Source: Erythrobacter sp. EC-HK427
Lineage (GTDB): Bacteria; Pseudomonadota; Alphaproteobacteria; Sphingomonadales; Sphingomonadaceae
Assembly (NCBI RefSeq): GCF_902498745.1
Contig: NZ_LR701479.1
Coordinates: 3,055,060 to 3,119,059, forward strand
DNA length: 64,000 bases
Direction: 5' to 3'
Part shown: positions 34,556-58,338 of the stretch, piece by piece
Layout of the letters: each line of letters opens with the position of its first letter
Numbering within the stretch: the stretch's first letter is position 1
The notes under the pieces: model-generated
Databases searched by the model: none
What the model was told of the DNA's origin: nothing
Seen by the model: only the letters and a program-made list of their open reading frames with translations
Translations under genes and position numbers: made by a program

Positions 34556-34587
34556 GCTAGTAAGGTCTACCAGTAGACCTTACTAGC
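34556..34587. repeat. perfect 15-bp inverted repeat spanning the MetE-like stop codon
   Basis: GCTAGTAAGGTCTAC (34556-34570) and its exact reverse complement (34573-34587) are separated only by CA. The repeat covers the last seven codons and the TAG stop of the minus-strand methyltransferase gene. Between two convergent genes it may act as a two-way terminator built into coding sequence; there is no T tract. Confidence 0.7.
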
Positions 34588-35694
34588 CTTCGCAGCGCCC
34601 TGCGCCAGTGCCGCGAGCTTCGCCCAGACGATCTCCGGATCGAGGCTGTTGCTGCCCGCGTGCACCGAGAAACCGCAGTCTACGCCCGCCAGCACCCGCT
34701 CGCGGCCGAGCAAATCGGCATAGCGGCCAATGCGCTGGGCGATCAGATCGGGGTGTTCGATGTAAGGGCTTTGCGGCTCGACCATGCCGGGGCAGAGGAT
34801 CTTGTTGTCAGGCAGCGGGTTGCTTTCGAAAAAGGCGAATTCATGCGCGTGGCGCGGGTTTGCCCCTTCCAGCAGCACGGTCTGCGGCTTCGCGCTCCAT
34901 ACGATGTCCGCAATCTCGCCCAGCGCCACGTCGCAGTGATGCGGCCCGGGATAATTGCCCCAGCACAGATGCATCCGGCATTGCTCTGCCGGAATATTCT
35001 GCAACGCATGGTTGAGCGCGGCGATGTTCATGCCGATGCGCTTGCGGAACTCCTCCAGCGAAAGCTCGGTAAACTGCACATGGCGGCCCATGGCGAGATC
35101 GGGGCAATCGACCTGCAGCGTGATCCCCGCTGCCGCAATCGTCTCATATTCGTGCCGCAGCCCTTCGGCGAGCGCGAAGACATAGGCCTCGTCGCTCTCG
35201 TAATACTGGTTGGGGAAGAACAGCGCGGTGACACCGGGGGACGCGGCGGACATGAATGTGGCATGGCCATCGGCAAGCCGGGACAAGCGTTCGGCATCCT
35301 GTCGCGGCGCGTCCATATCAATGACTTCAATCGGCGCGGTGCAGGCAGGGGCGGAACGTTTGGCGCGTCCCTTATTGCCGAAGACTTGCGCCTTTGCGCC
35401 GGGATAATCTTCCAGATCCTGGAATTCATACTGCCCCGCCTCACCGCCAAATCCCGACAGGCGATGCTTGATATAGGTGGCGTAGCTGGGCTTCGACATC
35501 TCGCCGTCGTTGATGATGTCAACACCGGCTGCTTTCTGTCGATGGACGATATGGGCCGTGGCGCGCTCAACGGCTTCGTCGAAATCGCTTTCGACTATGT
35601 CCGCGCCCTCCTCCTTCGCAAAGACGAGGTCGAGCAGATATTCGGGGCGCGGCAGGCTGCCGACATGGGTGGTGAGAAAACGTCCTGCGCTCAT
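34567..35694 (-). CDS. cobalamin-independent methionine-synthase-II-family protein (MetE/epoxyalkane-CoM transferase-like)
   Basis: A 375-residue TIM-barrel protein like the C-terminal half of MetE. It opens with TTHVGSLPRP. The zinc-site region has HLCWGNYPGPHH (His and Cys) near residue 235 and GVDCGF (Cys) near residue 338, with an acidic ligand probably in LLEGANPRH. Stand-alone members of this family include methyl transferases and epoxyalkane:coenzyme M transferase, all of which activate a thiol on zinc. It is the last gene of a minus-strand run (TonB receptor, VOC, hydrolase, this gene), so a catabolic alkyl or methyl transfer is more likely than methionine synthesis. The actual acceptor is unknown. 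Confidence 0.8.
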   Translation of the reverse strand: MSAGRFLTTHVGSLPRPEYLLDLVFAKEEGADIVESDFDEAVERATAHIVHRQKAAGVDIINDGEMSKPSYATYIKHRLSGFGGEAGQYEFQDLEDYPGAKAQVFGNKGRAKRSAPACTAPIEVIDMDAPRQDAERLSRLADGHATFMSAASPGVTALFFPNQYYESDEAYVFALAEGLRHEYETIAAAGITLQVDCPDLAMGRHVQFTELSLEEFRKRIGMNIAALNHALQNIPAEQCRMHLCWGNYPGPHHCDVALGEIADIVWSAKPQTVLLEGANPRHAHEFAFFESNPLPDNKILCPGMVEPQSPYIEHPDLIAQRIGRYADLLGRERVLAGVDCGFSVHAGSNSLDPEIVWAKLAALAQGAAKASKVYW

Positions 35695-35719
35695 GAAAAT
35701 CGCCCGTGTTTGCGCGGCT

Positions 35720-36541
35720 CTACGCGCCGCATTTGTTCAAGAAATCACGCACAATGGCGTTGAAAGCTGCGGGATTGTCGCAATTGGCGAGATGGCCTGC
35801 TGCGTCCACTTCGCAATGCGAACCGCGCGGCACCGTTCCGGCCAGCGCCTTGGCGCAGGCGCGCCGCCACGGGCTGTCCCCCGTCCCGGTCAAGGCGAGG
35901 CAAGGCGTGGACAGATGTGCCAGAACCTCTTTGGGCACGCCGGGCAGAACCGAGGGAGCGAGCAGGTCGCGTCCGTCATACCCCGCCACGATCTGTTCCA
36001 GCAGCGCTGCAACTTGCGCATTGGAGCATTGCATCAACGGATGGCGCATCCAGTCGCTGCGCATCTGCTCCCACGTGCCCGCTGCGGCCCATGCCTCATA
36101 TTGCGCCAGATCAAGTTCTTCGTCCCGCTCCACCAGCGTGGGCAAGGGCGCGCCGGAGACGATCAGGCTGGTCAGCCGCTCCGCATGGCGATGGGCGTAA
36201 TCGAGCGCGATGGCCGCACCCTGCGACAGCCCCAGCAGCGCAAACCGCTCGAACCCGAAGAAGCTGGCGATGGCGTGAATGTCGTCCGCCTCGCGCGCCA
36301 GATCGGGCGGAGCGGTGGAGCGGCCGAAGCCGCGCCGGTCGGGCATCACCAGCAAATGGCTGCGCGAAAGTTCGGCCACTTGCGGCAACCACATCCGCCA
36401 ATCCAGCGTCCAGCCATGCAGCAGGATGAGCGGTGGCCCCTCCCCCGCCATGGCAATCGGCACGATGCCGTCGCCGACAGCGACTTCACCGTGCCAGACC
36501 ATGTCCAGCGCGTCGGGCGCAATGGTGGCCATGGCGCCCAT
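35720..36541 (-). CDS. alpha/beta hydrolase of the IclR cluster
   Basis: A 273-residue serine hydrolase. The oxyanion motif is LILLHGWTLDW, the PDRRGFGRS loop follows, and the nucleophile is Ser in GLSQGAA near residue 104. A late Asp (GTGDSPW) and His (DAAGHLAN) complete the triad. It resembles meta-cleavage-product hydrolases and esterases in size and layout. It lies 9 bases after the VOC gene and 25 bases before the MetE-like gene. An extradiol-type VOC enzyme followed by a hydrolase is the usual order in ring-cleavage pathways, but the substrate is not shown. Confidence 0.85.
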   Translation of the reverse strand: MGAMATIAPDALDMVWHGEVAVGDGIVPIAMAGEGPPLILLHGWTLDWRMWLPQVAELSRSHLLVMPDRRGFGRSTAPPDLAREADDIHAIASFFGFERFALLGLSQGAAIALDYAHRHAERLTSLIVSGAPLPTLVERDEELDLAQYEAWAAAGTWEQMRSDWMRHPLMQCSNAQVAALLEQIVAGYDGRDLLAPSVLPGVPKEVLAHLSTPCLALTGTGDSPWRRACAKALAGTVPRGSHCEVDAAGHLANCDNPAAFNAIVRDFLNKCGA

Positions 36542-36550
36542 CCGGCAGGA

Positions 36551-37099
36551 TCAGGCCGCTTCGGCGGCGCGGAACGGATTGTTGTTTTCGTGATTGCCCG
36601 CCAGCCAGCGCGCCAGATCGCCATGCGCATTCGCGCGGCGCTCGGCATCGAGCGGCTCGGCGCGCGGATCGTCATGCGTGAATTCGAGGATCATGCCATT
36701 GGGATCGGTGACATAGACCGAACGGCAATAGCCATGTTCGAGCGTGTAGGTCTGCGGCTCAGTGATACCGGCATCGCGGATGCGCTTTTCAATCTCGTCC
36801 TGCCCGGCCTTCTCGACATGGAGCGCGACGTGGATGAACGGGCTTGACGGCATTTCCGGCCCGAATTCGGCCTGGTCTTCAGGATCGGCAAACTGGAAAA
36901 AGGCCAGGGCGCTGCCGTCGGCCAGCTCGAAGAAGCAGTGGCAATAGGTGCGCTCTTTGCCGAACAGTTCGTCCTTTTCGCAATAGGTCGCCATCAGCGG
37001 GAAGCCGAGCACGTCTTCATAAAAGGCGCGGGTCGCTTCCAGATCCTTGGTGACATAGGCGGTGTGGTGAAGACGGTTGGCAAGAATTCTGTCGCTCAT
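36551..37099 (-). CDS. VOC-family (glyoxalase / extradiol dioxygenase-like) enzyme
   Basis: A 182-residue metalloprotein with two beta-alpha-beta-beta-beta modules. Candidate metal ligands are His in LHHTAYVTKDLE near residue 12, His in FIHVALHVEK near residue 90, and Glu in VYVTDPNGMILEFTHD near residue 140. That spacing fits the VOC superfamily (glyoxalase I, extradiol dioxygenase, and epimerase branches). The DPNGMILEF ending is typical. GAGGAAG precedes the ATG. It is transcribed with the hydrolase (9-base gap) downstream of the TonB receptor. Confidence 0.85.
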   Translation of the reverse strand: MSDRILANRLHHTAYVTKDLEATRAFYEDVLGFPLMATYCEKDELFGKERTYCHCFFELADGSALAFFQFADPEDQAEFGPEMPSSPFIHVALHVEKAGQDEIEKRIRDAGITEPQTYTLEHGYCRSVYVTDPNGMILEFTHDDPRAEPLDAERRANAHGDLARWLAGNHENNNPFRAAEAA

Positions 37100-37157
37100 G
37101 ACGGCTTCCTCGTCGGTTGTAATGTTGCAAACAAACTAAGCGCTCTCAGCGCGGAAC

Positions 37158-37192
37158 GGCAGGCAGACTATCACCAGTGATAGCCGCCTGCC
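37158..37192. terminator. hairpin between the TonB receptor and VOC genes
   Basis: GGCAGGC (37158-37164) pairs with GCCTGCC (37186-37192) and an inner CTATCA pairs with TGATAG around a four-base loop. It lies just past the receptor stop. There is no T tract; it may end part of the receptor transcript or protect the 3' end of that message. Confidence 0.45.
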
Positions 37193-37209
37193 ATATCCGC
37201 CCCGCTAGC

Positions 37210-39420
37210 CTAGAACTGGTATCCCACTTCCACCCCGTAACGCGCCGGACGCGCTCGGAAAACGAAGCCGCCGGGCGAAAACTCGGCATTATACGTCTCG
37301 TCGAACAGGTTCTGCGCGAAGGCGGTGATCGAGACATCATTGAAGCGCAGGCCGGCGCGGGCATCGACGATGTTCACCGGATCGCGCACGGTGGTGTTGA
37401 ACGGCTCCCACCATGTGCGGCCCGTGCGGCGGAAATCGACACGCAGCAGCGCATCGACAGAGTCGCTGATCGGCCCGTCATACTGCATCCCCAGATTGAC
37501 CGTGGAGCGCGAGATCTGCGGCGCTTCATTGCCGATCACCGACGGATCGGCAAATTCTTCGATATTGCTGTAGGTCACACCCCATGCGGCGTTCACGTCG
37601 AGATCGGGAAGGATTTCCGCCGTCGCTTCCAGTTCGAAACCCTGCAAGCTAACCTCGGGAATATTGCCAAGATTCTGTGTGGAGGATGCGGCCAGGAACA
37701 CGAAGAAATAGCTGTTTTCCGACGTGGTCGAATAGGCAGCACCGTTCAGGCGGAACGGGCCGAAGTCCGATTTGAAGCCGAGTTCGAACGTGTCGGCGGT
37801 TTCGGCTTCGAAAATGTCCCCGACGCCGACAATCCCGTTGGCCACGGCTTCCGCGCCCACGCCCGTCTGGTTGAAACCGCCGGAACGGAAACCGCGGCTG
37901 TATCCGCCATACAGCGTCAGCTCGTCGGTCGGCTCATAGGTCAGCGTGATCTTCGGCTGCCAGTCATCGAAAGTGCGCGTGCGCACTTCGCCGCTTTGCG
38001 CCTGCGGAACCCCCGGCACCACCGGGAGGAAGGCCTGCGGCGTCAGCGTCGTCTGTTCGCGCCGGTCACGATCATACCGCAGCGAGGCATCGATGCGCAG
38101 CTGTTCGGAGATTTCATATCCGGCATTGGCGAACAGCGCCCAGGCGAAATTGCTCTGCCCGTCCGACAGGAAGGTGAATTGCGGGTTCAGCGGATTGGTC
38201 GCAGGGGTGCGGAATACCGGGAACACGCCATTCCCTGTGTCCACCATATTGCCGGTGGAGATGAAGCGTTCGGTATCGATCAGATAGCCGCCCACCATCC
38301 AGTTGAAGCGGCGCCCGTCATCGGGCGAGGCCAAGCGGATTTCCTGGCTGAACGCCTCCACATCGAGGAACTGCGCCTGGTTGAGATCGAACCCGTTGCC
38401 CGCGCCGAAAATGGTCTCGAACAGGTTGAAGAAGAACGAATCTTCAATCGGCAGGAAGTCGAAGGCGTCGCCCGTGAGGATTTCCTCCAGCGTGTCATAC
38501 GAAGTGACCGAGGTGAAGACGACATTGTCGCCTTCATACTCGGCGCGCAGCGCGACGTTGTAGATATCCCGGTCGTTCTGGCCCGGATTGTTCACCCGCA
38601 CATCGGCGATGTCGTTCACATCGCCAACGATGTTATAATAGAGGCCCTGCGTGCGCAGCTGGTTCATTGATCCGCGCAGATCGATGGTGAAACGGTCGGT
38701 CGGCTCGAACAGCAGACTGCCGCGCAGGCTCAAATCCTGCACCGGATCGGCCTCTTCGCCAAGGAAGGTGTTTTCGATAAAGCCGTCGGTTTCATACCAC
38801 GAACCCGCCACGCGGAAGAACGCGCCTTCGCCCAGCGGGCCACTCACCCCGCCGCGGAGGAAATAGCCGAAGCCATTGTCGATCCCGGCGGTGATATTGC
38901 CTTCGAAATTGCTGGTCGGTTGGCGCGTGGTGATAATAATCGCCCCGCCAATGGCGTTGCGACCATAGAGGCCACCTTGCGGCCCCTTGAGCACTTCGAT
39001 CTGCTCGATATCGAACAGATCCTGGTTGAATTGCGCGGGGTTTACTTGTTGCACCCCGTCTACAATCACTGCGACCGAAGGCTCGGAATTGCGGTTCTGG
39101 GTAATCCCGCGAATGATGACGAAGGCGTTGCCCGCGTTCTGCGTCTCGACGAGATTGACGTTGGGCGTGAGCGCGATGAAGTCACCCGGGCGCTGGATGC
39201 CGGCGTTTTCGATCGACTCGGCGGTGAATGCGGTCACCGCGGCAGGCGTATCCTGCAGGCTTTCGTCACGGCGCAGCGCGGTAACGACAATGGTGTTGCC
39301 ATCGGCTTCGGCCTCTTCGCCGGTCTCCGGATCGGCTTGCTGCGCAGTGGCGGGCACGGCCCACAGGGCGGCAGCGCCAAGCGCGATAAAACTCACAAAA
39401 GTAGAGTCCAACCTCTTCAT
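37210..39420 (-). CDS. TonB-dependent outer-membrane receptor of the IclR cluster
   Basis: A 736-residue receptor with a signal peptide (to ATAQQ, about residue 28), a TonB-box-like NTIVVTALRR, and a plug (about 50-165; DTPAAVTAFTAESI, VIIRGI, QIEVLKGPQGGLYGRNAIGG). The barrel ends in RYGVEVGYQF. The plug type is the common sphingomonad small-molecule/siderophore class, distinct from the two large receptors at 52-58 kb. GGGAGAG precedes the ATG. A 32-base compound operator (39497-39528) lies 77 bases upstream, also found before the citryl-CoA-lyase-like gene, which ties its uptake role to the IclR-regulated pathway. Confidence 0.9.
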   Translation of the reverse strand: MKRLDSTFVSFIALGAAALWAVPATAQQADPETGEEAEADGNTIVVTALRRDESLQDTPAAVTAFTAESIENAGIQRPGDFIALTPNVNLVETQNAGNAFVIIRGITQNRNSEPSVAVIVDGVQQVNPAQFNQDLFDIEQIEVLKGPQGGLYGRNAIGGAIIITTRQPTSNFEGNITAGIDNGFGYFLRGGVSGPLGEGAFFRVAGSWYETDGFIENTFLGEEADPVQDLSLRGSLLFEPTDRFTIDLRGSMNQLRTQGLYYNIVGDVNDIADVRVNNPGQNDRDIYNVALRAEYEGDNVVFTSVTSYDTLEEILTGDAFDFLPIEDSFFFNLFETIFGAGNGFDLNQAQFLDVEAFSQEIRLASPDDGRRFNWMVGGYLIDTERFISTGNMVDTGNGVFPVFRTPATNPLNPQFTFLSDGQSNFAWALFANAGYEISEQLRIDASLRYDRDRREQTTLTPQAFLPVVPGVPQAQSGEVRTRTFDDWQPKITLTYEPTDELTLYGGYSRGFRSGGFNQTGVGAEAVANGIVGVGDIFEAETADTFELGFKSDFGPFRLNGAAYSTTSENSYFFVFLAASSTQNLGNIPEVSLQGFELEATAEILPDLDVNAAWGVTYSNIEEFADPSVIGNEAPQISRSTVNLGMQYDGPISDSVDALLRVDFRRTGRTWWEPFNTTVRDPVNIVDARAGLRFNDVSITAFAQNLFDETYNAEFSPGGFVFRARPARYGVEVGYQF

Positions 39421-39496
39421 TTCATTCTCTCCCGAACGGGCGCGTGCGCGCGCCTCTGTGGAATCACTCTTCTGGACCGATGCAGCGAATATGAAA

Positions 39497-39528
39497 TTCG
39501 TAATGCGAAGTCAACTTCGATATGCGAA
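39497..39528. promoter_or_regulatory. compound inverted-repeat operator (IclR) before the TonB receptor
   Basis: Three nested inverted repeats: TTCG-TAATG-CGAA (39497-39509), CGAAGT-CA-ACTTCG (39506-39519) and TTCG-ATATG-CGAA (39516-39528). The same 32-base design recurs at 41532-41563. It lies between the iclR stop and the receptor start. Confidence 0.75.
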
Positions 39529-39530
39529 AA

Positions 39531-40346
39531 CTATGGTTTGAGCGATGCCTCAAGGGCGGGCCAACGCTTCAGCGCCCCCTCGATCTCGCTCGCCGCACCG
39601 CGCAACAGCGGCAGACGGGTGCGCACAAGTTCATCCTGCGAAATGCGGGTCGTGGAGGTGGAACAGTTGATCGCGGCAACGACCTTGCGCTCGCGCCCGT
39701 AGATCGGGACAGCCACCGAAACGATGCCGTAATCCAGCTCGTCGAGCGCGGAATCATACCCCCGCTCGGCAATCAGCACGAACCGCTCCTCGATGGCGGC
39801 GCGGTCTGTCACTGTGCGTTCGGTGAACCGTTGGTAGGGCGCCTGCGCCAGCAGCCCATCGCGCTCTCCGGCAGGGAGGCTGGCGGCCATGGCTTTGCCG
39901 AGCGAGGTCGCATGAAACGGGAAGCGCGTGCCCACATTGGCCGCGAGCCGGAACCGGCGGTCGGTAGAAACGTGCGCGACATATAGGATTTCGTTGCCCG
40001 CCAGCACCGCCAGCGAAGCGCTGTCGCCGGTCTGGTCGCGCAAATGCTGCAAAGCCGGATGCACCACCTGCTCGATCTGCATCGACGCGAGGAAGGCCGA
40101 CCCGATGGTCAGCACCGCCGGCCGCAACAGGAATTTGCGTTCGTGCTGCGCGACATAGCCAAGTTCGAGGAAAGTCTTGAGACAACGCCGGGCCACTGCG
40201 GGCGGCAGGCCGGTTTTCACTGCGACTTCGCTGAGGGTCATTTCGGGATCGTCCTCGTCAAACGCCTTCAGCACCCGCATCCCGCGTTCCAGCGTGGACA
40301 GAAACTCCGGATCCTTGGTGGCCGGATGTTTTCCCTCAAATCCCAT
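39531..40346 (-). CDS. IclR-family transcriptional regulator
   Basis: A 271-residue regulator. The N-terminal winged HTH (about 15-75: RGMRVLKAFDEDDPEMTLSEVAVKTGLPPAVARRCL, only partly quoted as MTLSEVAVKTGLPP) is followed by the IclR effector domain (about 90-265) with the landmark GTRFPFHATSLGKAM and the late AINCST segment. Relatives sense small acids, often aromatic ring-cleavage intermediates. I chose the ATG at 40346, with AGGAGG 8 bases upstream. It follows the CoA transferase gene by 2 bases, so the two are one operon. Candidate operators lie at 39497-39528 and 41532-41563. Confidence 0.92.
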   Translation of the reverse strand: MGFEGKHPATKDPEFLSTLERGMRVLKAFDEDDPEMTLSEVAVKTGLPPAVARRCLKTFLELGYVAQHERKFLLRPAVLTIGSAFLASMQIEQVVHPALQHLRDQTGDSASLAVLAGNEILYVAHVSTDRRFRLAANVGTRFPFHATSLGKAMAASLPAGERDGLLAQAPYQRFTERTVTDRAAIEERFVLIAERGYDSALDELDYGIVSVAVPIYGRERKVVAAINCSTSTTRISQDELVRTRLPLLRGAASEIEGALKRWPALEASLKP

Positions 40347-40348
40347 CG

Positions 40349-41485
40349 TCAGTCCCTCCTGCGCCCGCAAATCTCCGCATCGCCCTCGCCCAGCACGGGC
40401 GGGGCAAGCACGGTGTTTGGCCGTTCACCATCGAAGCTGAGCGGCGAGCGGATGGTGCGGAATTCGCCGTGCGGCCCATCCGGATCGCACACTTCGATCC
40501 CCAGATGCCGCGCCTGCTCGCTGTCGAGCACTTCTTGCGAGGTGCGCACTGGCGAATTGGGCACTTCCAGCCGCGTCAGTTCGTCGGCCCAATAGGCGCG
40601 CGGCTTCGTCGCAAATATCGGTGCCAGGAACGCCACGACATCCTCGTAATGCGCAATCCGCGCCTCGCGGCTTTCGAAGGCAGGCAATTGCAGCATATCA
40701 GTCCGCCCCACGGCGCTGGCCAGATTCTCCCAGAATTTGGGCGGTGAAGACATATGCAACGCCAGCCATTGCCCGTCCGCGCATTCGAAGACATAGCTTT
40801 GCGATACGTGCGGGCGGCTATACGGCCCCATCACTTCATCAGCGGACAGCAGATGGGTGAAATCGTCGAGATTGAAGTGGCACATCGCCTCGAACATGGA
40901 CGTCTCGACCGCGCGCCCCTTCCCCGTCGTCCCGCGTTCGTGCAGCGCGGCGAGGATGCCGAGCGCGGTGTAAAACCCCGTCATCGCATCGGCAACCGCC
41001 GGGCCAACGACGCGCGGATGTTCGGGATTGACGAACAGGCGGAGGAACCCCGAAGCGGCCTGCGCCACGGTGTCGAAAGCGGGCCGGTCACGGTCGGGGC
41101 CGGAACTGCCGAAGCCGGAAATGGAGGCGTAGATCAGCCGCGGATTGATCGCCTGCAAGCGTTCCGCACCGACATTCAGCCGGTCGGCCACGCCGGGGCG
41201 GAAATTCTGGATGAAGACATCGGCCGTTTCGACAAGCCGGTCGAGGATCGCAAGATCATCAGGATCCTTGGGATCAATCGTGATCGACCGCTTGTTGCGG
41301 TTGTAGGTCTGGAAATGCGGACTGTAGAGGCCGCCTTTGAAACTGCGGAACGGATCGCCCAGGCCGGGCTTTTCAACCTTGATGACTTTGGCGCCCAGAT
41401 CGGCCAACAGCATCCCAGCGGCAGGCCCGGTGATGAAAGTGCCCATTTCGAGCACTGTGATATCCTGTAGAGGCTTGACCGGCAT
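40349..41485 (-). CDS. CaiB/BaiF-type (class III) CoA transferase
   Basis: A 378-residue enzyme that moves CoA from one carboxylic acid to another. It begins PLQDITVLEMGTFITGPAAG and has the NRNKRSITIDPKDP segment, the catalytic-Asp region VETADVFIQNFRPG, and the FDTVAQAASGF segment of the family. The ATG at 41485 has GGGAA nearby; a GTG at 41506 would add seven residues. It diverges from the citryl-CoA-lyase-like gene across a 91-base region that contains the IclR-type operator. Together the two suggest a pathway in which an acid is made into its CoA ester and then cleaved or condensed. Confidence 0.9.
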   Translation of the reverse strand: MPVKPLQDITVLEMGTFITGPAAGMLLADLGAKVIKVEKPGLGDPFRSFKGGLYSPHFQTYNRNKRSITIDPKDPDDLAILDRLVETADVFIQNFRPGVADRLNVGAERLQAINPRLIYASISGFGSSGPDRDRPAFDTVAQAASGFLRLFVNPEHPRVVGPAVADAMTGFYTALGILAALHERGTTGKGRAVETSMFEAMCHFNLDDFTHLLSADEVMGPYSRPHVSQSYVFECADGQWLALHMSSPPKFWENLASAVGRTDMLQLPAFESREARIAHYEDVVAFLAPIFATKPRAYWADELTRLEVPNSPVRTSQEVLDSEQARHLGIEVCDPDGPHGEFRTIRSPLSFDGERPNTVLAPPVLGEGDAEICGRRRD

Positions 41486-41531
41486 CCGCGTTTCCCGATT
41501 TGACACTTGACTTTGCGGAGGGCATATATTC

Positions 41532-41563
41532 TTCGCATACCGAAATCAACTTCGTTTAACGAA
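41532..41563. promoter_or_regulatory. compound inverted-repeat operator (IclR) in the divergent promoter
   Basis: Three nested inverted repeats: TTCG-CATAC-CGAA (41532-41544), CGAAAT-CA-ACTTCG (41541-41554) and TTCG-TTTAA-CGAA (41551-41563). It ends 13 bases before the citryl-CoA-lyase-like ATG, so binding here should repress that gene and could control the divergent CoA transferase-iclR operon as well. Confidence 0.75.
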
Positions 41564-41576
41564 AAGGAAATCCGCT

Positions 41577-42359
41577 ATGCGCATCGGCAAGCAGGATAAC
41601 GCCGTCACTTCGATCTGCGCTTCAGATGCTACCAGCATCACCGTGCGCGGCCTTGATCTGTGTAACGAGGTGATCGGAAAAGTCGACTTCACCAGCTATT
41701 TCTGGCTGTTGGTAACAGGCACCATGCCCGATGCGCGGCAGAAACTGCTCGCTGACGCTGTCCTGTGCGCGATTGCCGAGCACGGGCTCGTGCCCAGCGT
41801 GGTCGCCACGCGCATGACCTACGCCGCCGCGCCCGAAGCCTTCCACGGCGCGGTCGCTGCGGGACTGCTCGGCTGCGGATCGGTGGTTTTGGGCAGCGCC
41901 GAGGTCGCAGGCCGCTTCTACGCCGCCTGCATCACGCGCGCGCAGACCGAAGGCCTGAGTTTCGAAGAAGCCGCACGCATCGGCATCACCGAATTGCGCG
42001 CGGAGAAGCAGCCCATTCCCGGCTTCGGCCACCCGCAACATTCGGGCGGTGACCCGCGCGCGCATCGCCTGCTCGCCATCGCCGAAGAACAGGGCGCTTC
42101 TGCCGACCATGTGCGGATGCTCCGCGCGATCGAGACCGTTCTGCCCGATACCATTGGACGCAGCCTGCCGATCAACGTGAACGGCGCGATCCCCGTGGTG
42201 ATGCTGGATGCCGGTTTCCCGCTTGCCGCGCTCAAAGGCATATCCCTCCTCGCCCGCACCGCCAGCCTGATCGGCCACCTGCAAGAAGAGACCGAACGCC
42301 CCATCGGCTTCATCATGAGTGGCGCTGCGGCCGCGCGGATCGGGTTTGAAACGGATTGA
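41577..42359 (+). CDS. citrate-synthase-fold citryl-CoA-lyase-like protein
   Basis: A 260-residue short member of the citrate synthase superfamily, of the type named citryl-CoA lyase. Two histidines expected for catalysis are present, in AFHGAVAAG (about 84) and PGFGHPQHSGGDPRAH (about 146). Where true citrate synthases have NVD with the catalytic Asp, this protein has INVNGAIPVVMLD, so Asp is replaced. Cleavage of a citryl-CoA-like ester is plausible, but synthesis of citrate is not expected. AAGGAAAT precedes the ATG. It diverges from the CoA transferase gene and carries the IclR-type operator at its promoter. Confidence 0.82.
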   Translation: MRIGKQDNAVTSICASDATSITVRGLDLCNEVIGKVDFTSYFWLLVTGTMPDARQKLLADAVLCAIAEHGLVPSVVATRMTYAAAPEAFHGAVAAGLLGCGSVVLGSAEVAGRFYAACITRAQTEGLSFEEAARIGITELRAEKQPIPGFGHPQHSGGDPRAHRLLAIAEEQGASADHVRMLRAIETVLPDTIGRSLPINVNGAIPVVMLDAGFPLAALKGISLLARTASLIGHLQEETERPIGFIMSGAAAARIGFETD

Positions 42360-44672: not shown

Positions 44673-45704
44673 TCACCGTTGGACGCGGCCTGACCCATCG
44701 CCGGACATCAGCTTCTCGACTTCGGGCACTGTCACGCGGTTGAAATCGCCCATGATCGTGTGCTTGAGCGCCGATGCCGCGACCGCGAATTCAAGGCTCT
44801 GCTGCCGGTCTTCATAGGCGTTGAGCCCGTAAATCAGCGCCGAAGCAAAGCTGTCCCCGCCGCCCACACGGTCGACAATATCGGTCAGCTCGTATTTGCG
44901 GCTGAGCATAAAGCCGTGATCGCGCGTGCGCAGGCAGGCCGACCAATTGTTGCGATCCGCGCTCAGGCTTTCGCGCAGGGTGATCGCGATGGTGTGCATA
45001 TCGGGATAGATATCGAGCACCTTCTGGCCCAGCGCCTCATACTTCGCGGTATCAAGCTCGCCCGATTCCACATCGACATCCACCGTGATGTCGAGCGACT
45101 TTTGGCAGTCTTCTTCATTGGCGATGCCGACATCGACATATTTCACCAGTTCGCGCATCACTTGCGGCGCACTCTTGCCGTACTTCCACAGCTTGCCGCG
45201 GAAGTTGAAATCGCAGGAGACGGTAAGCCCCGCTTCCTTCGCCGCTTTGACACAAGCCATGGAGAGGTCAGCGGCGGACTGGCTTAGCGCAGGGGTAATG
45301 CCGGTGATGTGCAGCCATTTGGCGCCTGCGAAAATGGTCGGCCAGTCGAATTCATCCGCGCTGGCATTGCAGATCGAGGAATTGGCGCGGTCATACACGA
45401 CTTTGGATGGGCGCTGGTTCGATCCGGTTTCGAGGAAATAGATCCCCACACGCTCCCCCGAGCGGCTGATATGCGCGGTGTCGACGCCGAACTTGCGCAA
45501 TTCCATGATCGCGTTTTCGCCAATGTCATTGTCGGGCAGCGCGGTGACGAAACCGGCATCCAGACCGTAATTGCTCAGCGCCACCGCCACATTTGCTTCG
45601 CCGCCACCGAAGGTCGCTTCGAACTGCGGCGATTGGAAAAAGCGCTCGTGTCCCGGCGTTTTCAGCCGCAGCATGATTTCGCCGAAGGAGAGAAAGTCAG
45701 TCAT
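44673..45704 (-). CDS. kdgK: 2-keto-3-deoxygluconate kinase (PfkB family)
   Basis: A 343-residue ribokinase-family enzyme that phosphorylates KDG to KDPG, the entry to the lower Entner-Doudoroff route. It opens [12 protein letters not shown], has the [15 protein letters not shown] substrate-site motif near residue 33, and the C-terminal PfkB signature [13 protein letters not shown] with the catalytic Asp. The alginate lyases and uronate reductase upstream on the same strand fix the substrate as KDG. GGGA precedes the ATG. It is the last gene of the run PL6-PL17-SDR-kdgK. The aldolase (eda) is not in the window. Confidence 0.92.
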
Positions 45705-45738
45705 CGAAAGTCCCGTGAAATGCGACCGCGCAGCGCGA

Positions 45739-46494
45739 TCAGGAGAAGGCCAGGCCGCCGTTTATATCCAAATTGACACCGGTGACAAAGGCAGAATTCT
45801 GGGAAATCAGATAAAATACCGCATCGGCCACTTCACCTGCTGCGCCCTGCCGTTTGAGCGGGGTGGCATTGGCCACGTTTTCGCGCACCGCATCAGGCGT
45901 GAAGGTGTCGTGGAAGGTAGTGGCGATCATCCCCGGAGCGACCGCGTTGACGCGAATGCCCTTCGGCCCGAGCTCCTTGGCGAGACCGCGGGTGAAGGTC
46001 ATCACCGCGCCTTTGGACGTGGCATAGGCAATCGCCCCGCCCCCGCCGCCATCGCGCCCGGCTATCGAGGACAGGTTAACAATCGCCGCGCCTGCCTGCA
46101 TATGCGGCACCGCTGCCTTGCAGGCGAGAAACGTGCTGGTGAGGTTTAGCTGGATAACATGGTTGAAGAAGGTCTCGTCCATTTCGGCCAGCGTCTTGCG
46201 AGCCACCAGACCGCCCGCATTGTTGACCAGTGCGTGGATTTCCTCCCCGAACGCGGCCTGTGCAGCTTGCACCAAAGCATCGACATCGGCCGCCTTGGTC
46301 ACATCGGCCTTCACCGCAATGGCCTTGCCCCCCGCCGCTTCAACCGCCGCCACCGTCGCATCCGCATCAGCCTGATTGCTGTTGTAATTGACGACGACAT
46401 TAGCGCCTTCGCTGCCCAGCCGGACCGCAATGGCGCGCCCGATATCGCGGCTGCCGCCGGTAACGATTGCGGTTTTCCCTGTAAGACTGCCCAT
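45739..46494 (-). CDS. SDR, probable DEH (unsaturated uronate) reductase to KDG
   Basis: A 251-residue short-chain reductase. The cofactor loop is [10 protein letters not shown] (about 12-21), NNAGG is near residue 92, and Ser in NLSSIAG and YATSK near residue 155 form the active site. After the second strand, NYNSN replaces the Asp of NAD-users, so NADPH is likely. Between an oligoalginate lyase and KdgK, the expected reaction is reduction of 4-deoxy-L-erythro-5-hexoseulose uronate to KDG, as by A1-R of Sphingomonas sp. A1. AAGGAA precedes the ATG. The gap to the PL17 gene is 39 bases. Function is by context and family, not by a unique motif. Confidence 0.85.
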
Positions 46495-46533
46495 GTGTAT
46501 TCCTTGTCCGGTGATTGGATGTGATGGAGAGGA

Positions 46534-48699
46534 TTAGTCGCCCAGGCTGAAGCGGGCGGCATAGCCCTGCCACGCAAGCTCTCGGCTTTCGATTGTTACG
46601 CGGTGCGATGCCGCAGGATCATTCTGCCAGGAAATCGCCACCGCGACTGTTTCCCCGGCAAGCGTTTCGATCAGGATGACGTCATATTCGTCTGCTTCGA
46701 CATGGCGCAGGGCGGCAATCCGGCTGTCGCCTTCAACCGTTTGTTCGGCTGCGCCATCATAAAGGCCGTGTGGTTCCAGCACGCTAACGAAAGTCGCATC
46801 GCTGCTGTCCATCACCCGCTGGATCACCACCGGCTCGCGGCGCAGATTGAAATCAGGGTCATTCGCCCCGCTTTCGCCAAGGATCACCTCAAGGCCGTCC
46901 TGCGGAACAAAGCGATAAGTGTAGAAGCGGCCGTCGAGCAGCCACGTCATGAAACTTTCGCCCTCGTCCGGCGCGGCGCGTCCGTCTTCCCAGATATGCT
47001 GGTAACCATGCCCGCTGCCCAGCACCGGGCGCGTATCGACATAGCGTTCGAGATCGAACCCCAGCCGCATGATATGGCCCGCATAATGCAGCGGCAGATC
47101 AAACTGCACCGGCGTTTCGCTGGAGGCGCGCAGCACATCCAGCGCGAGCGGCTGCGCAAGCCCTTCCACGGTCACCAGAGCGAGCAGCCGCTCCATCGCC
47201 ACGCCTTCGTTCGGATAGGCGCTGTCGATGCTGGCGGCGCTGGCCTGGAAGCCGTCTGCCACATGGAACCAATCCTGCGTCGGCCACGCCGCCTCGGCCA
47301 GAGCGAGATCGCCGTAGAAATGGCTCTGTTCGTTCACCACCAGCGTATTGTGCGCGATGGTCTGCTTCGCCCAGCTTTCGTTTTCAGGCAGGTAGCGCCC
47401 GCCCTCTTTCGCCTCGATATTGAGGAAACGCGCCGCGCCGTAATCGGTGACGACTTCCTCGCCCATCGCGTAAAGCTGCCAGCTCAGCTTGTCGAAATGG
47501 CCGTGCCCCATGCCTTGCGAGGCATTCTTGGCGACCAGCGCCATGTGATTGGGGCCAGTGCCTTCACGCAGCACGGCAATCGCGCCCTGATCGCCATCAG
47601 GCCCGTCGGAAAATAGCATGGAGCGGAAGCGAAATGGCTCGGCCTCCCCAGCGGAGAGCGCCTCGGCCATGCCCAGCCCGGCGGGCGAAATCACCGTGCG
47701 GTTCTGGAAGCGGGCGATATCGAGCAGCGCGGGATCGCCGCTCACCGCGTAACCGATGGCAACGCCTTCATACAGTTCGGCCGTGTTCAGGCTCTTGTCG
47801 CGCATGGCATCGTTGAAGGGGAAGAAATACCCGTTGTAAGTCAGCTGGATGGTCGTATCGAGCGCCTTTAGCAGAATGCCGTCACGATGTTCGAAAATGC
47901 GCAATTCCGGCTGGTTTCGCTCGATCGCTCCAGCAAACACCATGAACGGCAGCATGGCGAAACGCTGGTAATATGGCCCTTCGGTATAATATCCATCGGG
48001 CGAGAACAGCAGTTCGGCCTGGCGGATAAAGCCCGCCTCTCCCGGCCCCGCCGTGCCGTAGAGCGCGCTGCGCACCATTTCCTCGTCATCCAGCACATAT
48101 CCGGTCATCCCGACCGCGGCGGTGGCCCAGGTGGCGTGGTTGTGGATGAGATTGAACGTCGCAGCCGATTCCACCGAGAGGAAATGCGATGCGCGGCGGA
48201 ACACGTCATTGTCGATCCGTTCCCGCTCAGCAGCGGGCAATTCGTCTCGGATAATCTCGTAGGCTTGGATCGCGTGGACTTGCCACATGGCATCGTTGAG
48301 CACTTGCCAGAACAACCGCCCCACATTCTGGTTCGCCCTTGCGGGATGCTCCCCGAGCGTCGGATAAAGCGCCGCGTATTCGAGCAGCATTTCACGCACG
48401 AAGCCGAAATATCGCGGTTCGCCCGTCAGTTCGTATAGCTGCGCGGCGAGCAGCATCGCGCGGTAATTCCGCTTGTGCTGTTCATGCGTGTAGCCACCGC
48501 CTGGGTCACGCGGGACAGGCACAATCACGCCCGCTGCGATCATCTCCTCCACGAAGGTCTCTGCCTGCGCCATCTCTGCGGCAAAGAGCGGGGGGTAGGC
48601 CCGTTGCTCCGCAGCTTCGGCAATTGTAGCGTCCTGTGCGGTTGCGTGCGTTGGCAAGGCGATCGCCGCCGCCATTGCGAGAGCAAACACTGTCCTCAT
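46534..48699 (-). CDS. PL17 oligoalginate lyase (heparinase II/III-like)
   Basis: A 721-residue exo-lyase with a signal peptide (to ATAQ, about residue 22). An alpha/alpha toroid (about 30-360) and a C-terminal beta-sheet domain follow. Active-site residues are Asn187-His188 in HNHATW and the Tyr pair 243-244 in EGPYYQR; they sit 14 residues before Asn201, His202 and Tyr258 of Alg17C. A GMGHGHFDKLSW segment carries further conserved His and Asp. It cuts alginate oligomers to the unsaturated monomer, which becomes DEH. The signal peptide places this in the periplasm or on the surface. Its ATG overlaps the PL6 stop by 4 bases. Confidence 0.92.
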   Translation of the reverse strand: MRTVFALAMAAAIALPTHATAQDATIAEAAEQRAYPPLFAAEMAQAETFVEEMIAAGVIVPVPRDPGGGYTHEQHKRNYRAMLLAAQLYELTGEPRYFGFVREMLLEYAALYPTLGEHPARANQNVGRLFWQVLNDAMWQVHAIQAYEIIRDELPAAERERIDNDVFRRASHFLSVESAATFNLIHNHATWATAAVGMTGYVLDDEEMVRSALYGTAGPGEAGFIRQAELLFSPDGYYTEGPYYQRFAMLPFMVFAGAIERNQPELRIFEHRDGILLKALDTTIQLTYNGYFFPFNDAMRDKSLNTAELYEGVAIGYAVSGDPALLDIARFQNRTVISPAGLGMAEALSAGEAEPFRFRSMLFSDGPDGDQGAIAVLREGTGPNHMALVAKNASQGMGHGHFDKLSWQLYAMGEEVVTDYGAARFLNIEAKEGGRYLPENESWAKQTIAHNTLVVNEQSHFYGDLALAEAAWPTQDWFHVADGFQASAASIDSAYPNEGVAMERLLALVTVEGLAQPLALDVLRASSETPVQFDLPLHYAGHIMRLGFDLERYVDTRPVLGSGHGYQHIWEDGRAAPDEGESFMTWLLDGRFYTYRFVPQDGLEVILGESGANDPDFNLRREPVVIQRVMDSSDATFVSVLEPHGLYDGAAEQTVEGDSRIAALRHVEADEYDVILIETLAGETVAVAISWQNDPAASHRVTIESRELAWQGYAARFSLGD

Positions 48700-50942
48700 T
48701 CCCCTGCCTCCCCGTCAAAGCTGTTGTCGCGCATTTCCACGCGCGGCGCGCAGGCGCATTCGCGTTCAACGATTGCAGGCGCGGGGGTGTTCTGAAAGCG
48801 GTTATCCGCCACCACAGTGCGCGGCGTGCCGACAGTATGCGTGATAGCCACAGGTGCCGAGCCAAGGAAGTGGTTGCCAAGGATGCGGGTGCGCTGTGTT
48901 CCGTGCAGCTCAAGCGATGCCCCGGCGCCCGCGCCAACTGCTTCAAGGGTCGAACCGGAAATCAGGATATGCGGTCCGAACGTGCTTTCATCTCGCCCGC
49001 CGCGATAGACCTCGGCGACTGGCCCGCGCACATTGCGGAAAGTCGAGCCGCTGATATCGAGATATTCGACATTGTAGCGCCCCTGATCGTCCGCCTCGGC
49101 GATGGCGGAGACGACGCTGCCGCTGATATTCTCAAATGTGCTGTTGCGGATATCCACCCGATCAGCGAGCGTTGACGGGCCGAACGCGATCACATCGAAA
49201 TCGCGGTTGATATCGAGATTGCGGACAAGAACATGGCCCAGCGCGATGCGCAGATTGCCGCGAATGGGAACGCTCGCCGTGCGGATCACAGCATTGGCGG
49301 AGGAATCGGGGGCCTGCGAACCGTCGATAACCAGATTGTGCAGCGCCAGCGCGCCATTCTCGCGCAATTCAAACAGGGTGGGCCGCGCAAATTCGATGAT
49401 CGTTGCGCCATTGCTGCTGCCGGTCAGCGAGACCATGCGCTCCACCGGAATGGTGCGGTCTATCACATAGGTTCCGGGCGCGAGCAGCAAGGTGTCGGAT
49501 TCGCCCGTGTCGCCAATCGCGGCAATCAGCGCCGCGGATGAGAGCGGGACGGCCCGCATCTCGCTTTGCCCGAAAGCAGCCTCCGGTGCGGGCTTGGGAT
49601 ACCAGTCCACCCCCACTTCATCGAGCGCAAGCACCCGCAAGTCGCGCGGTGCGCCGACAGCCGCCAGCGCAGGATCGACCGGATAGAGCAAGCCATTCGC
49701 GCCGCGTTCCAGCCGCGTATCGGCGGGCTTCGCAAAGGACAGCTCGGGTGCCGCCTCGCCGGCCAGCAGCGCATTGCCTGCAAAGCGGATGCCATCGACC
49801 GGCGCATCGACCTCGACAAATCTGGCCCCTGCCCGGCCAGCGAGGAGATTGTTGCCGAACGTGCTGTCAGAGGGCGCGACCGAGCGTTCGGCATCCGCCC
49901 CTGCGCCAAACGTAATGCGATCACTATCGTGGATCGAATTGTTCTCGATCTCGGCAAATTGCACCTCGACATAGCGGTTGGCGGGCGAATTGGGCACGCC
50001 GTTCATCACTGTCAGCGCGCTGGCGAACCCGTCTCCCCGCAGCCCTTCCATGTAATTTTCACGCACGATCTGGCGGCGGTTGATCACCCGTATCCCGCCC
50101 GTGTGATCTACGCCATTGCCCAGAAAGACATTGCGCTCCACCACATTGCCGTCGCCGTGGCGCAAAGTCAGCGCGCCGCGCGATTCCAGGAACAGATTGC
50201 CGCGCACCAGATTGCCGCCCGCCTTGACCGAAATGATCTCCACCTCGCCATTGCAGCGGTCGAAAATGTTGTTTTCGACAATCGTGTTCGAATTGAACTC
50301 GGCAAAATGGCTGGTGCCGATCCGCAGCGTCTCCCCGCCATTGGATCCGAGATTGGGGCGCGGGCCGAAATAATTGTGGTCGATCCGGTGGTTGTTCTCG
50401 CGGCTGTCTTCGGTGTTGAGCCGGACGGCCAGCGTCACGCCGGCGTTGGTCTTGCCTACCAAGTGGTTGTGATCGAAGCGGTTGTTGCGCCCGTAAAGCG
50501 CCACCCAGTAATCCGAATCGAAGCGGTCGGGCTTGCTGAAGTGGTCGATGACCACCTGCGTCACGCGCGAATTGAAGGCCAGTGTTTCACTATCAACCCG
50601 GAAAGCAATCACTTCGCCTGTGGGGCTGTGTCCGTCGCGGAAGACGAGGCCGGATACGACAAGATGCGATCCGCCAATCCGCAAATTGGACTGGCCGGTC
50701 AGGATGACCCCGCCCATGGTTTCCGCAGTCAGCGTGATCGGCGCTTCCTCGCGCCCCTGCCCTTGCAGCACGATTTCGAAATCGCGCCATTCGCCATCGG
50801 CAAGGATGATAGTGTCACCTGCTACAACGCTGCCCGCCACCTGCTCGTACTCCGCCTGCGTTTCGACGAAATACTCCTCCGCCATGGCGGGAGACGCAGC
50901 GAGGCACAATGCGACAATCCAGGCGGCCAGTGCGCGAAACAT
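48696..50942 (-). CDS. PL6 alginate lyase (chondroitinase-B-like, two-domain)
   Basis: A 748-residue lyase with a signal peptide (MFRALAAWIVALCLAASPAMA region, first 21 residues). The catalytic beta-helix (about 22-440) contains the base Lys240 in EIISVK and acid Arg261 in LTLRHG. Calcium ligands are probable at Asn201 (NGGE), Glu233 and Glu235. All five lie 20 residues beyond their counterparts in AlyGC, a G-specific two-domain PL6 enzyme. A second beta-helix (about 470-740) makes it the long, AlyGC-like class. The ATG at 50942 has AGAGGAAAG upstream. It leads an operon with PL17, the SDR and kdgK, behind a GntR-type operator (51028-51041). Confidence 0.93.
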   Translation of the reverse strand: MFRALAAWIVALCLAASPAMAEEYFVETQAEYEQVAGSVVAGDTIILADGEWRDFEIVLQGQGREEAPITLTAETMGGVILTGQSNLRIGGSHLVVSGLVFRDGHSPTGEVIAFRVDSETLAFNSRVTQVVIDHFSKPDRFDSDYWVALYGRNNRFDHNHLVGKTNAGVTLAVRLNTEDSRENNHRIDHNYFGPRPNLGSNGGETLRIGTSHFAEFNSNTIVENNIFDRCNGEVEIISVKAGGNLVRGNLFLESRGALTLRHGDGNVVERNVFLGNGVDHTGGIRVINRRQIVRENYMEGLRGDGFASALTVMNGVPNSPANRYVEVQFAEIENNSIHDSDRITFGAGADAERSVAPSDSTFGNNLLAGRAGARFVEVDAPVDGIRFAGNALLAGEAAPELSFAKPADTRLERGANGLLYPVDPALAAVGAPRDLRVLALDEVGVDWYPKPAPEAAFGQSEMRAVPLSSAALIAAIGDTGESDTLLLAPGTYVIDRTIPVERMVSLTGSSNGATIIEFARPTLFELRENGALALHNLVIDGSQAPDSSANAVIRTASVPIRGNLRIALGHVLVRNLDINRDFDVIAFGPSTLADRVDIRNSTFENISGSVVSAIAEADDQGRYNVEYLDISGSTFRNVRGPVAEVYRGGRDESTFGPHILISGSTLEAVGAGAGASLELHGTQRTRILGNHFLGSAPVAITHTVGTPRTVVADNRFQNTPAPAIVERECACAPRVEMRDNSFDGEAGE

Positions 50943-51027
50943 TGCTTTCCTCTCATCCTCAATTGGGAGGGAAGAATAGGCCGCCAATGCTGTCAGTCAA
51001 CCGATATTCTATGCCAAAATGGCAATT

Positions 51028-51041
51028 TATATCATACCAAT
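51028..51041 (-). promoter_or_regulatory. GntR-type operator before the PL6 operon
   Basis: On the minus strand ATTGGTATGATATA. It matches ATTGGTANGAYAKA, found also before the gntR gene and both large TonB receptors. It lies about 86 bases before the PL6 ATG. Confidence 0.7.
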
Positions 51042-51051
51042 TTCTAACAGA

Positions 51052-51792
51052 TCAGCCGAGCTTTGCCGCGGTCATGAAGCGCTCGCGGCTCTGGCTCGCG
51101 CGTTGTTGCAACTCGGCAAGTGCCTGCGCCTCGGTGGCGTCGAGCATTGTGCCGATCAACCGCTTGAAATGTTCGCGCATCGCGCCGCGGGCTGCTGCCG
51201 CATCGCGCGACCTAAGGGCTTCAAAGATCGCCCGATGCTCCTCGCGGCGCGCCGAGGCATCATGCAAGCAGACCGCATCATAGGTGGCCTTCACCTGCGG
51301 CAACTGGTCGCGCATCTGCCACAGCTGGGTAATGGTGTGCACCATGGCCGTGTTGTTCGATGCAGCGGCAATGGTCAGGTGAAACTGCTCGTCAGCTTCG
51401 TCCGATAATGCGTTATCCTCGCTCGCCATTTGCTCGACGAGTTCGGCCAACCGTTCGATCTGCGCGTCGGTGATGTTGTGCGCGGCCAGCGCGGCGGCTT
51501 CGGATTCGATCAGCAAACGTGCCTCGGTGACTTCAAAAGCACTCGCCGCAGGCAGGGCCGCCAGCGCCTGCGGTGACCGCTCGGCCACATAAACTCCCGA
51601 ACCGGTCTTGATCTCCAGCCGTCCGATCGCTTGCAGCGCGATCTCCGCTTCCCGGATGGTGACGCGGCTGACGTTGAATTTCTCGGCCAGATCGCGCTCG
51701 CCTGGCAACCGCGAACCCGGTGGATACGCCCCTTCATCGATCAATACGACAATCTTTCGTGCGATGTCCTGATAAAGGCGTTTTGCGGTCAT
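51052..51792 (-). CDS. GntR/FadR-family regulator of the alginate locus
   Basis: A 246-residue regulator. A winged HTH (about 1-72: GSRLPGERDLAEKFNVSRVTIREA region) precedes an all-helical FCD effector domain (about 92-230) in which His and Asp residues (TIAAASNNTAMVHTI, DASARREEHRAIFEAL) suit metal and carboxylate binding. FadR-type relatives UxuR and ExuR control hexuronate genes and bind TTGGTATACCAA-like sites; the candidate operators here carry the same TTGGTA half. GGGGAT precedes the ATG. It lies between the TonB receptor and lyase genes and has an operator in its own promoter. Confidence 0.92.
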   Translation of the reverse strand: MTAKRLYQDIARKIVVLIDEGAYPPGSRLPGERDLAEKFNVSRVTIREAEIALQAIGRLEIKTGSGVYVAERSPQALAALPAASAFEVTEARLLIESEAAALAAHNITDAQIERLAELVEQMASEDNALSDEADEQFHLTIAAASNNTAMVHTITQLWQMRDQLPQVKATYDAVCLHDASARREEHRAIFEALRSRDAAAARGAMREHFKRLIGTMLDATEAQALAELQQRASQSRERFMTAAKLG

Positions 51793-51843
51793 GGTATCCC
51801 CGGAAACAGACGAATCGTGTCGTTTGGCGACGGCGTTAGCCGA

Positions 51844-51857
51844 TATGTCATACCAAT
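51844..51857 (-). promoter_or_regulatory. GntR-type operator before the gntR gene
   Basis: On the minus strand ATTGGTATGACATA, the best match to the four-site consensus, about 52 bases before the gntR ATG. This points to autoregulation. Confidence 0.7.
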
Positions 51858-51886
51858 TCCAGACTTTGCCTGTGGAGCGCGAAGAA

Positions 51887-51912
51887 GGGCACCCGCGGGA
51901 GAACGAGCGCCC
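51887..51912 (-). terminator. hairpin after TonB receptor 1
   Basis: On the minus strand GGGCGCTCG pairs with CGGGTGCCC (two G-T pairs) around an eight-base loop, starting 10 bases past the receptor stop and followed by TTCTTCG. It is a fair terminator that separates the receptor from gntR. Confidence 0.5.
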
Positions 51913-51922
51913 CTCTCCGCTG

Positions 51923-55051: not shown

Positions 55052-55129
55052 TTCACTCTCCCATGTTTTGTCAAAGCGTAAAAGGCTGGACCAAAAGGTC
55101 AACCTAAAAACTACACCAATTATCAGATT

Positions 55130-55143
55130 TATGTCTTACCAAT
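55130..55143 (-). promoter_or_regulatory. GntR-type operator before TonB receptor 1
   Basis: On the minus strand ATTGGTAAGACATA. A weaker ATTGGTGTAG copy follows about 17 bases nearer the gene. Confidence 0.65.
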
Positions 55144-55158
55144 GTGAGGCAAAAGAAA

Positions 55159-55183: not shown

Positions 55184-55207
55184 TCAAGGGAGGAGGAGCT
55201 TCGTGCA

Positions 55208-58249: not shown

Positions 58250-58338
58250 AATCTCTCCCTTTCACCTTACTGGCTTTGCGCCTCTTTGAGCGTTCTACGC
58301 CCTTTTGTAAACCTTCGATGCACTCCAATTACCGATTA

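Follow-up and report, generated by a model that had tools for sequence, protein, structure and literature searches.

A conserved seven-gene cluster of Erythrobacter sp. EC-HK427 with a possible role in the breakdown of a substituted para-diphenol

Sphingomonads carry out 4,5-cleavage of protocatechuate and gallate and O-demethylation by means of LigAB and LigM, and receptor-mediated uptake of lignin dimers (DdvT) is known in this group. Here, we describe a gene cluster in a 64,000-nucleotide stretch of the Erythrobacter sp. EC-HK427 genome (NZ_LR701479.1; "the window," whose positions serve as coordinates throughout). It encodes a MetE-like zinc protein, an alpha/beta hydrolase, a small protein of the vicinal oxygen chelate (VOC) family, a TonB-dependent receptor, an IclR-family regulator, a class III coenzyme A (CoA)-transferase, and a citrate-synthase-fold protein named citryl-CoA lyase (the lyase-like protein). 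The cluster resembles the LigAB/LigM system in its predicted ring cleavage and in the one-carbon genes near relatives of its MetE-like gene, whereas LigAB, LigM, and the aldolase are missing from it and its lower route would use CoA esters; the sole EC-HK427 match to the LigM-type protein of one related locus (L100) is 27% identical over part of the protein. It shares the VOC fold and active-site-type residues with the VOC-type homogentisate pathway of Acinetobacter (structure 9u42), which also has an IclR gene nearby in a plasmid relative, but no maleylacetoacetate isomerase or fumarylacetoacetase is among the seven genes; instead of these two, there are a CoA-transferase, a citrate-synthase-fold protein, a MetE-like protein, and the cluster's own receptor. 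Citramalate and itaconate degradation proceeds by a CoA-transferase and a citramalyl-CoA lyase, a succession of class III CoA-transferase and CoA-ester lyase that is alike, except that the lyase here has a citrate-synthase fold without the catalytic Asp and a His.

The core methionine synthases MesA to MesD, as presented in the relevant passages of Price et al. 2021 (PMC7857596), consist like our MetE-like protein of the MetE catalytic domain alone, with zinc and homocysteine residues. The window protein differs from them in falling under every methionine synthase cut-off, in the lack of a DUF1852 gene among the seven, and in its place in a catabolic operon. According to the same passages, MesD, a core enzyme of the MetE type, depends on oxygen and on a partner protein, MesX, and a flavin reductase is often encoded nearby; we regard it as an instructive parallel. 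The passages of PMC9420511 on hydroquinone ring cleavage do not describe our gene set, and no named pathway with it turned up in open-licence literature, in line with an earlier reading of this DNA made without database searches (the sequence-only reading), which knew of none with this exact set.

Conservation and regulation of the gene set

The seven genes very likely make up a genuine catabolic unit that is conserved and under joint control. The EC-HK427 genome comprises 3.14 Mb in 3 contigs and is 99.99% complete. Its seven open reading frames (ORFs), checked for coordinates and family profiles, span positions 34567 to 42359; counted from the lyase side, the six on the minus strand encode the CoA-transferase, IclR regulator, receptor, VOC protein, hydrolase, and MetE-like protein, and the lyase-like gene is divergent on the plus strand. 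The gaps are 25, 9, 110, 110, 2, and 70 bases, the gap of 2 being that with an ATG start of the IclR gene at 40346; the mechanical ORF begins at a TTG at 40370 and overlaps its neighbor. This layout agrees with the sequence-only reading, which had reported the same families in six minus-strand genes and one divergent gene with gaps of 2 to 110 bases.

Conservation was surveyed in the loci of the best 80 of 402 relatives of the MetE-like protein, a sample that is biased to close relatives and in which every locus holds the MetE-like gene; the nearest named ones belong to Erythrobacter, Aurantiacibacter, Sphingomonas ursincola, Porphyrobacter, and Blastomonas. The loci were scanned by tblastn with the window proteins, leaving receptor and MetE matches below 55% identity out of the counts. 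ORF calls, which include shadow ORFs, served only to spot extra conserved genes that were then re-counted by tblastn. All seven genes were matched in 36 loci, including those of Blastomonas natatoria (L009) and Erythrobacter ramosus (L020). Another 24 hold four genes alone, encoding the CoA-transferase and the lyase-like, VOC, and MetE-like proteins, and these four are the core that persists without the receptor, IclR, and hydrolase genes. The remaining 20 loci contain parts of the set, 5 of them the MetE-like gene alone, suggesting that this gene is usable without the rest; 14 of the 44 loci without one or more of the seven genes are less than 15 kb long.

A second and less biased survey covered 149 genomes of the family, with identity thresholds (lyase-like, 60%; VOC, 67%; MetE, 62%) that were set at gaps in the match lists and excluded 6 of 26 lyase-like rows along with numerous weaker VOC and MetE rows. 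Close relatives of the VOC protein and of the MetE-like protein share one group of 19 genomes, and the lyase-like gene is found in this group and in one more genome (Fisher's P values of ~4e-23 and ~2e-24 for co-occurrence). Within the 19 genomes, the VOC and lyase-like genes lie within 15 kb of each other in 18, the MetE-like and lyase-like genes in 17, and the MetE-like and VOC genes in 18. An accidental neighborhood was therefore rejected; homologs are neighbors in other genomes too, one of the points on which the sequence-only reading had made its proposal depend.

Regulation is likewise tied to the gene set. The 32-bp pattern TTCG-N5-CGAA-N6-TTCG-N5-CGAA matches exactly at two intergenic sites of the cluster. 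No other site occurs in the 3.14-Mb genome when up to 2 mismatches are allowed, and a reversed control pattern has no match; at 3 mismatches, the window yields one additional match at 54851, with 0.61 expected by chance. The IclR gene and an exact operator are found together in 42 of the 80 loci and are both absent from 34, an agreement in 76 that leaves 4 discordant loci, two of which are shorter contigs. Of the 85 sites in the 80 loci, 39 separate the divergent CoA-transferase and lyase-like genes, 41 precede the receptor gene, 4 precede the VOC gene, and 1 is unplaced. Among the 149 genomes, 12 have exact sites, and 24 of the 25 sites lie at the cluster in 11 cluster-bearing genomes. The relative in Aminobacter MSH1 has one operator just upstream of its IclR gene, and a Niveispirillum relative has two. 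The IclR domains of the regulator were matched, while the PcaR/PcaU/PobR model TIGR02431 was not reached. The co-occurrence of IclR and operator across loci points to IclR as the likely dedicated regulator of the cluster, with binding predicted. The shared compound operators reported in the sequence-only reading are thus exact and genome-exclusive, and its view of the cluster as one unit that has a receptor and a regulator of its own gains support from gene linkage and from the tracking of IclR by the operator.

The clusters of loci L065 and L066 are rearranged, and each has three exact operators, the third of which separates the VOC gene from the lyase-like gene.

A candidate route for para-diphenol breakdown

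Our preferred reading, which we judge about equally likely to be right or wrong, is an IclR-controlled operon that takes up a substituted para-diphenol, most likely methoxylated, and degrades it completely; both the substrate and the last steps are what we infer. Import would be by the TonB receptor; a quinone reductase (WrbA in the majority of sister loci, missing from this one) would keep the compound in the hydroquinone form, and the zinc MetE-like protein would transfer its methyl group to homocysteine or another thiol. The VOC dioxygenase would cut the ring next to a hydroxyl, and the alpha/beta hydrolase would cleave the ester or beta-diketone so formed, yielding a maleylacetate-like acid. 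Once the CoA-transferase had put CoA on this acid, the CoA ester would be split to acetyl-CoA and a C4 acid by the citrate-synthase-fold enzyme, which does not have the customary catalytic Asp. IclR may sense an intermediate and control both promoters via the two compound operators.

Aromatic ring cleavage is very probably what the cluster performs. The best solved relative of the VOC protein by sequence is 9u42, titled homogentisate 1,2-dioxygenase of Acinetobacter, which is also the best fold match of its model (fold E value, 1.1e-12; mean predicted local distance difference test [pLDDT] score, 89.6). Six residues, H12, H54, H90, H122, Y129, and E139, are identical between the two and invariant in 27 sequences, including relatives in Rhodococcus, Streptomyces, and Paraburkholderia, and by position we liken them to the metal-binding and acid-base residues of type I extradiol dioxygenases. 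On an Acinetobacter plasmid, a distant relative adjoins fahA, maiA, and an IclR gene; the relative in Streptomyces and further VOC relatives lie in uninformative or different neighborhoods, one of them next to genes for a TonB receptor and a quinone reductase-type protein. The closeness to homogentisate dioxygenase and the nearby quinone reductases favor a para-diphenol ring of the hydroquinone type, which we consider probable. The sequence-only reading had seen the VOC protein and hydrolase as a ring-cleavage pair, which fits a VOC protein nearest to a ring-cleaving dioxygenase; the possibly aromatic substrate it proposed is supported as to the ring, now sharpened to a probable para-diphenol rather than a generic catechol.

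Additional genes differ between the two types of sister loci. Of the 49 IclR/receptor-type loci, 41 encode the NAD(P)H:quinone oxidoreductase WrbA, compared with 2 of the 24 four-gene loci, and its gene lies between the receptor and VOC genes in 37 of the 43 WrbA-bearing loci; the example tested reached 318.5 bits, above the WrbA cut-off of 132.5. The 24 four-gene loci carry a second MetE-like gene (18 loci), genes for a GMC oxidoreductase (19 loci) and a P450 (17 loci), and two genes for MBL-fold lactonase-like proteins (15 and 18 loci), which may or may not belong to the set.

The MetE-like protein reached none of the methionine synthase models (best NCBIfam score, 93.2 bits versus a cut-off of 406). 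Residues H242, C244, E276, and C340 for zinc and S13, E65, and D196 for homocysteine, mapped onto it from motifs and alignments, are invariant in 25 of 25 aligned sequences, including the window protein and the second MetE-like type; their binding roles are those given in the passages of Price et al. (PMC7857596) on this subject. A MetH-domain match in the EC-HK427 genome implies that the protein should not be needed for methionine, and the idea of a needed methionine synthase was rejected on this ground. In 12 of the 19 cluster-bearing genomes, the gene is paired with an adjacent second MetE-like gene; two examples of this second type from other loci fit best the methionine synthase model PRK09121, below its cut-off (262 versus 392 bits). 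Relatives with 42 to 44% identity adjoin metF and a gene that we read as LigM-type (annotated as glycine cleavage T/aminomethyltransferase family), and one in Novosphingobium US6-1 lies near purU, ligA, and an extradiol gene; those in Rhodococcus (two), Ruegeria, Dietzia, and Pantoea have other settings. Removal of a methoxyl group by this protein is a tentative assignment, and demethylation onto homocysteine is the preferred but unproven reading, with methyl-folate disposal as its main rival.

Locus L062 has three different MetE-like genes around its VOC gene (35%, 23%, and 75% identical to that of the window by tblastn), and its lyase-like, CoA-transferase, and IclR genes are nearby in reversed orientation.

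The lyase-like protein passed the citryl-CoA lyase subfamily model NF004868, scored for the window protein only among the lyase-like sequences, and its model (pLDDT, 74.3) has 6hxp as the top fold hit. Its Asn202, however, aligns with the catalytic Asp of the NVD motif in 6hxp, 1iom, and 6qcl, and in 76 lyase-like sequences, the window protein included, this position holds Asn (66), Ser (9), or Ala (1). Val104/Leu105 stand opposite the His of the HGGA motif in 6hxp and 1iom (alignment read by eye), a His that we presume to be catalytic; a later one, H152, is retained. Structure entries exist, by their titles, for ATP-citrate lyase with an Asp-to-Ala mutation in the presence of substrates, products, or citryl-CoA. 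If the mutated Asp is, as we assume, the one replaced by Asn202, its loss should hinder normal turnover. With the Asp missing in all 76 sequences, the public name citryl-CoA lyase is probably wrong for the window protein and its 75 relatives, judging from the alignment. A true citryl-CoA lyase was rejected because both the catalytic Asp and a catalytic His are missing; their loss makes it unlikely that a citryl-type ester is split in the known way and tells against the citryl-CoA-lyase-like cleavage suggested in the sequence-only reading.

The partner CoA-transferase has an Asp145, which we take to be equivalent to the catalytic Asp of the family, in more than 95% of 75 aligned sequences. The lyase-like and CoA-transferase genes adjoin annotated extradiol dioxygenase genes in Aminobacter, Martelella, and Sinorhizobium; genes for a VOC protein, a FAD monooxygenase, and a hydrolase in Rhodococcus; and genes for an intradiol-type dioxygenase, a FAD hydroxylase, and a LeuCD-type hydratase in Burkholderia, and a comparable, more dispersed set is found in Cupriavidus. 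The Burkholderia and Cupriavidus sets point to a maleylacetate-like acid whose CoA ester may be split to acetyl-CoA and a C4 acid, although last steps of the maleylacetate type are in our view a doubtful guess. More speculative still, and rather improbable, is the full proposal, in which the MetE-like proteins act as zinc- and thiol-dependent O-demethylases that work without folate, cobalamin, or a monooxygenase on a methoxylated hydroquinone or its ring-opened product, the VOC protein opens the ring, and Asp-less citrate-synthase-fold enzymes release acetyl-CoA from the CoA ester of an acid resembling maleylacetate.

A related-looking cluster on plasmid pUSP2 of Aminobacter MSH1 (L082, positions 6613 to 17238), a few kilobases from nitrile hydratase genes, encodes an FMN reductase, IclR regulator, TRAP transporter, hydrolase, MetE-like protein, lyase-like protein, CoA-transferase, and extradiol dioxygenase.

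Competing explanations

The ring might be of the catechol type, with the VOC protein and hydrolase as a classical meta-cleavage pair and quinone reductases that only protect the catechol. VOC extradiol enzymes usually act on catechols, the single-domain L-DOPA dioxygenase 6on1 is among the VOC fold hits, and some cluster relatives have extradiol dioxygenases in place of the VOC protein, the one of Aminobacter being closest, with scores below cut-off, to models of class III extradiol enzymes, gallate dioxygenase among them. The nearest solved relative, however, acts by its title on homogentisate, a hydroquinone, and the distant plasmid relative sits in a maiA/fahA cluster; we regard a catechol as unlikely. 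The same closeness to homogentisate dioxygenase would suit a second homogentisate pathway for tyrosine or phenylalanine, but a cupin-type HmgA match lies elsewhere in the genome and the isomerase and fumarylacetoacetase are not among the seven genes, for which reasons this pathway was rejected as highly improbable. Only slightly more credible is a nonaromatic substrate, a small citramalate-like di- or tricarboxylate that would be imported and split by the CoA-transferase and lyase, with the VOC protein as an epimerase. The family names of these two enzymes and the LeuCD-type hydratases beside the pair in two plasmids speak for it; the active-site-type residues of a ring-cleaving dioxygenase in the VOC protein, the repeated company of ring-cleaving dioxygenases around the pair, and the lost residues of citryl-CoA cleavage speak against it.

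Nearest in probability to methoxyl removal, though we still think it unlikely, is that the MetE-like protein serves only as a methionine synthase or in methyl-folate disposal, linked to the set by chance or for one-carbon balance and not acting on the ring. The fully kept zinc and homocysteine residues, the metF and other folate genes near the 42 to 44% relatives, and the loci with the MetE-like gene alone fit this explanation. The MetH-domain match does not, nor do the confinement of the gene, at an identity of at least 62%, to exactly the 19 genomes with a close VOC relative and its frequent pairing with a second MetE-like gene, superfluous for plain methionine synthesis.

Several results weigh against the preferred reading of a methoxylated para-diphenol pathway. 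The homocysteine residues are equally compatible with plain disposal of methyl groups from methyl-folate, and three of the loci with a lone MetE-like gene (L059, L075, and L076) have ~21 kb of DNA. The lost catalytic residues make tentative any reaction assigned to the lyase-like protein, whose relatives in Agrobacterium, Neorhizobium, Paraburkholderia, and Bosea have no dioxygenase among the genes listed, in plasmid-record tables that are incomplete and make a missing gene weak evidence. The hydrolase was not found in the 24 loci with the four core genes. No WrbA match was found in the EC-HK427 genome or its cluster, and WrbA is missing from 8 of the 49 sister loci, two of them contigs of <10 kb. 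No exact operator is present in 8 of the 19 cluster-bearing genomes, in which IclR presence was not scored, and one cluster-free genome has 1 site. Promoter scans found none (terminator scans were not above chance).

If true, the preferred reading would add a dedicated aromatic-degradation route of the Erythrobacteraceae, Blastomonas, and other sphingomonads; Rhizobiales, Burkholderiales, and Rhodococcus have related gene sets. Proteins named citryl-CoA lyase whose catalytic residues fail to support the name would also gain a function, as would a MetE-like class that annotation pipelines label methionine synthases. Should the O-demethylase and Asp-less lyase assignments hold as well, the route would be a CoA-dependent alternative to that via maleylacetate reductase and 3-oxoadipate. 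With the regulator, exact operator, and gene set defined, culturable strains would allow a direct test of the question.

Feature coordinates and adjoining genes

Table 1. Genes and operator sites of the cluster, in window positions
Feature	Position	Strand	Evidence
MetE-like zinc protein, 375 amino acids, without folate-binding N-terminal domain	34567..35694	-	PF01717, 38.9 bits
Alpha/beta hydrolase, PcaD (3-oxoadipate enol-lactonase)-like	35720..36541	-	TIGR02427, 86.3 bits (under cut-off of 255.85); PF00561
Putative single-domain VOC dioxygenase, homogentisate/hydroquinone type	36551..37099	-	PF00903; nearest PDB chain, 9u42
TonB-dependent outer-membrane receptor	37210..39420	-	PF00593 and PF07715
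Compound operator 1, upstream of receptor gene	39497..39528	+	Exact pattern match
IclR-family regulator, ATG start	39531..40346	-	PF01614, PF09339; TIGR02431, 248.6 bits (cut-off, 284.75)
Class III (CaiB/BaiF) CoA-transferase	40349..41506	-	PF02515, 348 bits; best PDB match, formyl-CoA transferase
Compound operator 2, between divergent CoA-transferase and lyase-like genes	41532..41563	+	Exact pattern match
Citrate-synthase-fold protein named "citryl-CoA lyase"	41577..42359	+	NF004868, 302.5 bits (cut-off, 193); Asn202 replaces catalytic Asp

The flanking genes for MFS, LacI, short-chain dehydrogenase/reductase (SDR), ABC-F, kinase, and second SDR proteins have no conserved neighborhood in the related loci, except for a LacI match of 72% in L081 and an ABC-F match of 80% in L018, which puts the ends of the set at the MetE-like gene on one side and the lyase-like gene on the other. 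LacI, SDR, and kinase neighbors were rejected as members since they are not conserved beside the cluster; on the alginate side, the neighbors checked for this were the kinase, SDR, and ABC-F genes. This side is a probable alginate-use locus that adjoins the cluster (window positions 44673 to 63879), with genes for a PfkB-type sugar kinase, an alginate/heparinase-type lyase, a chondroitinase-B-like lyase, a GntR regulator, two large TonB receptors, and a TRAP transporter, and its presence next door hints at an algal setting.

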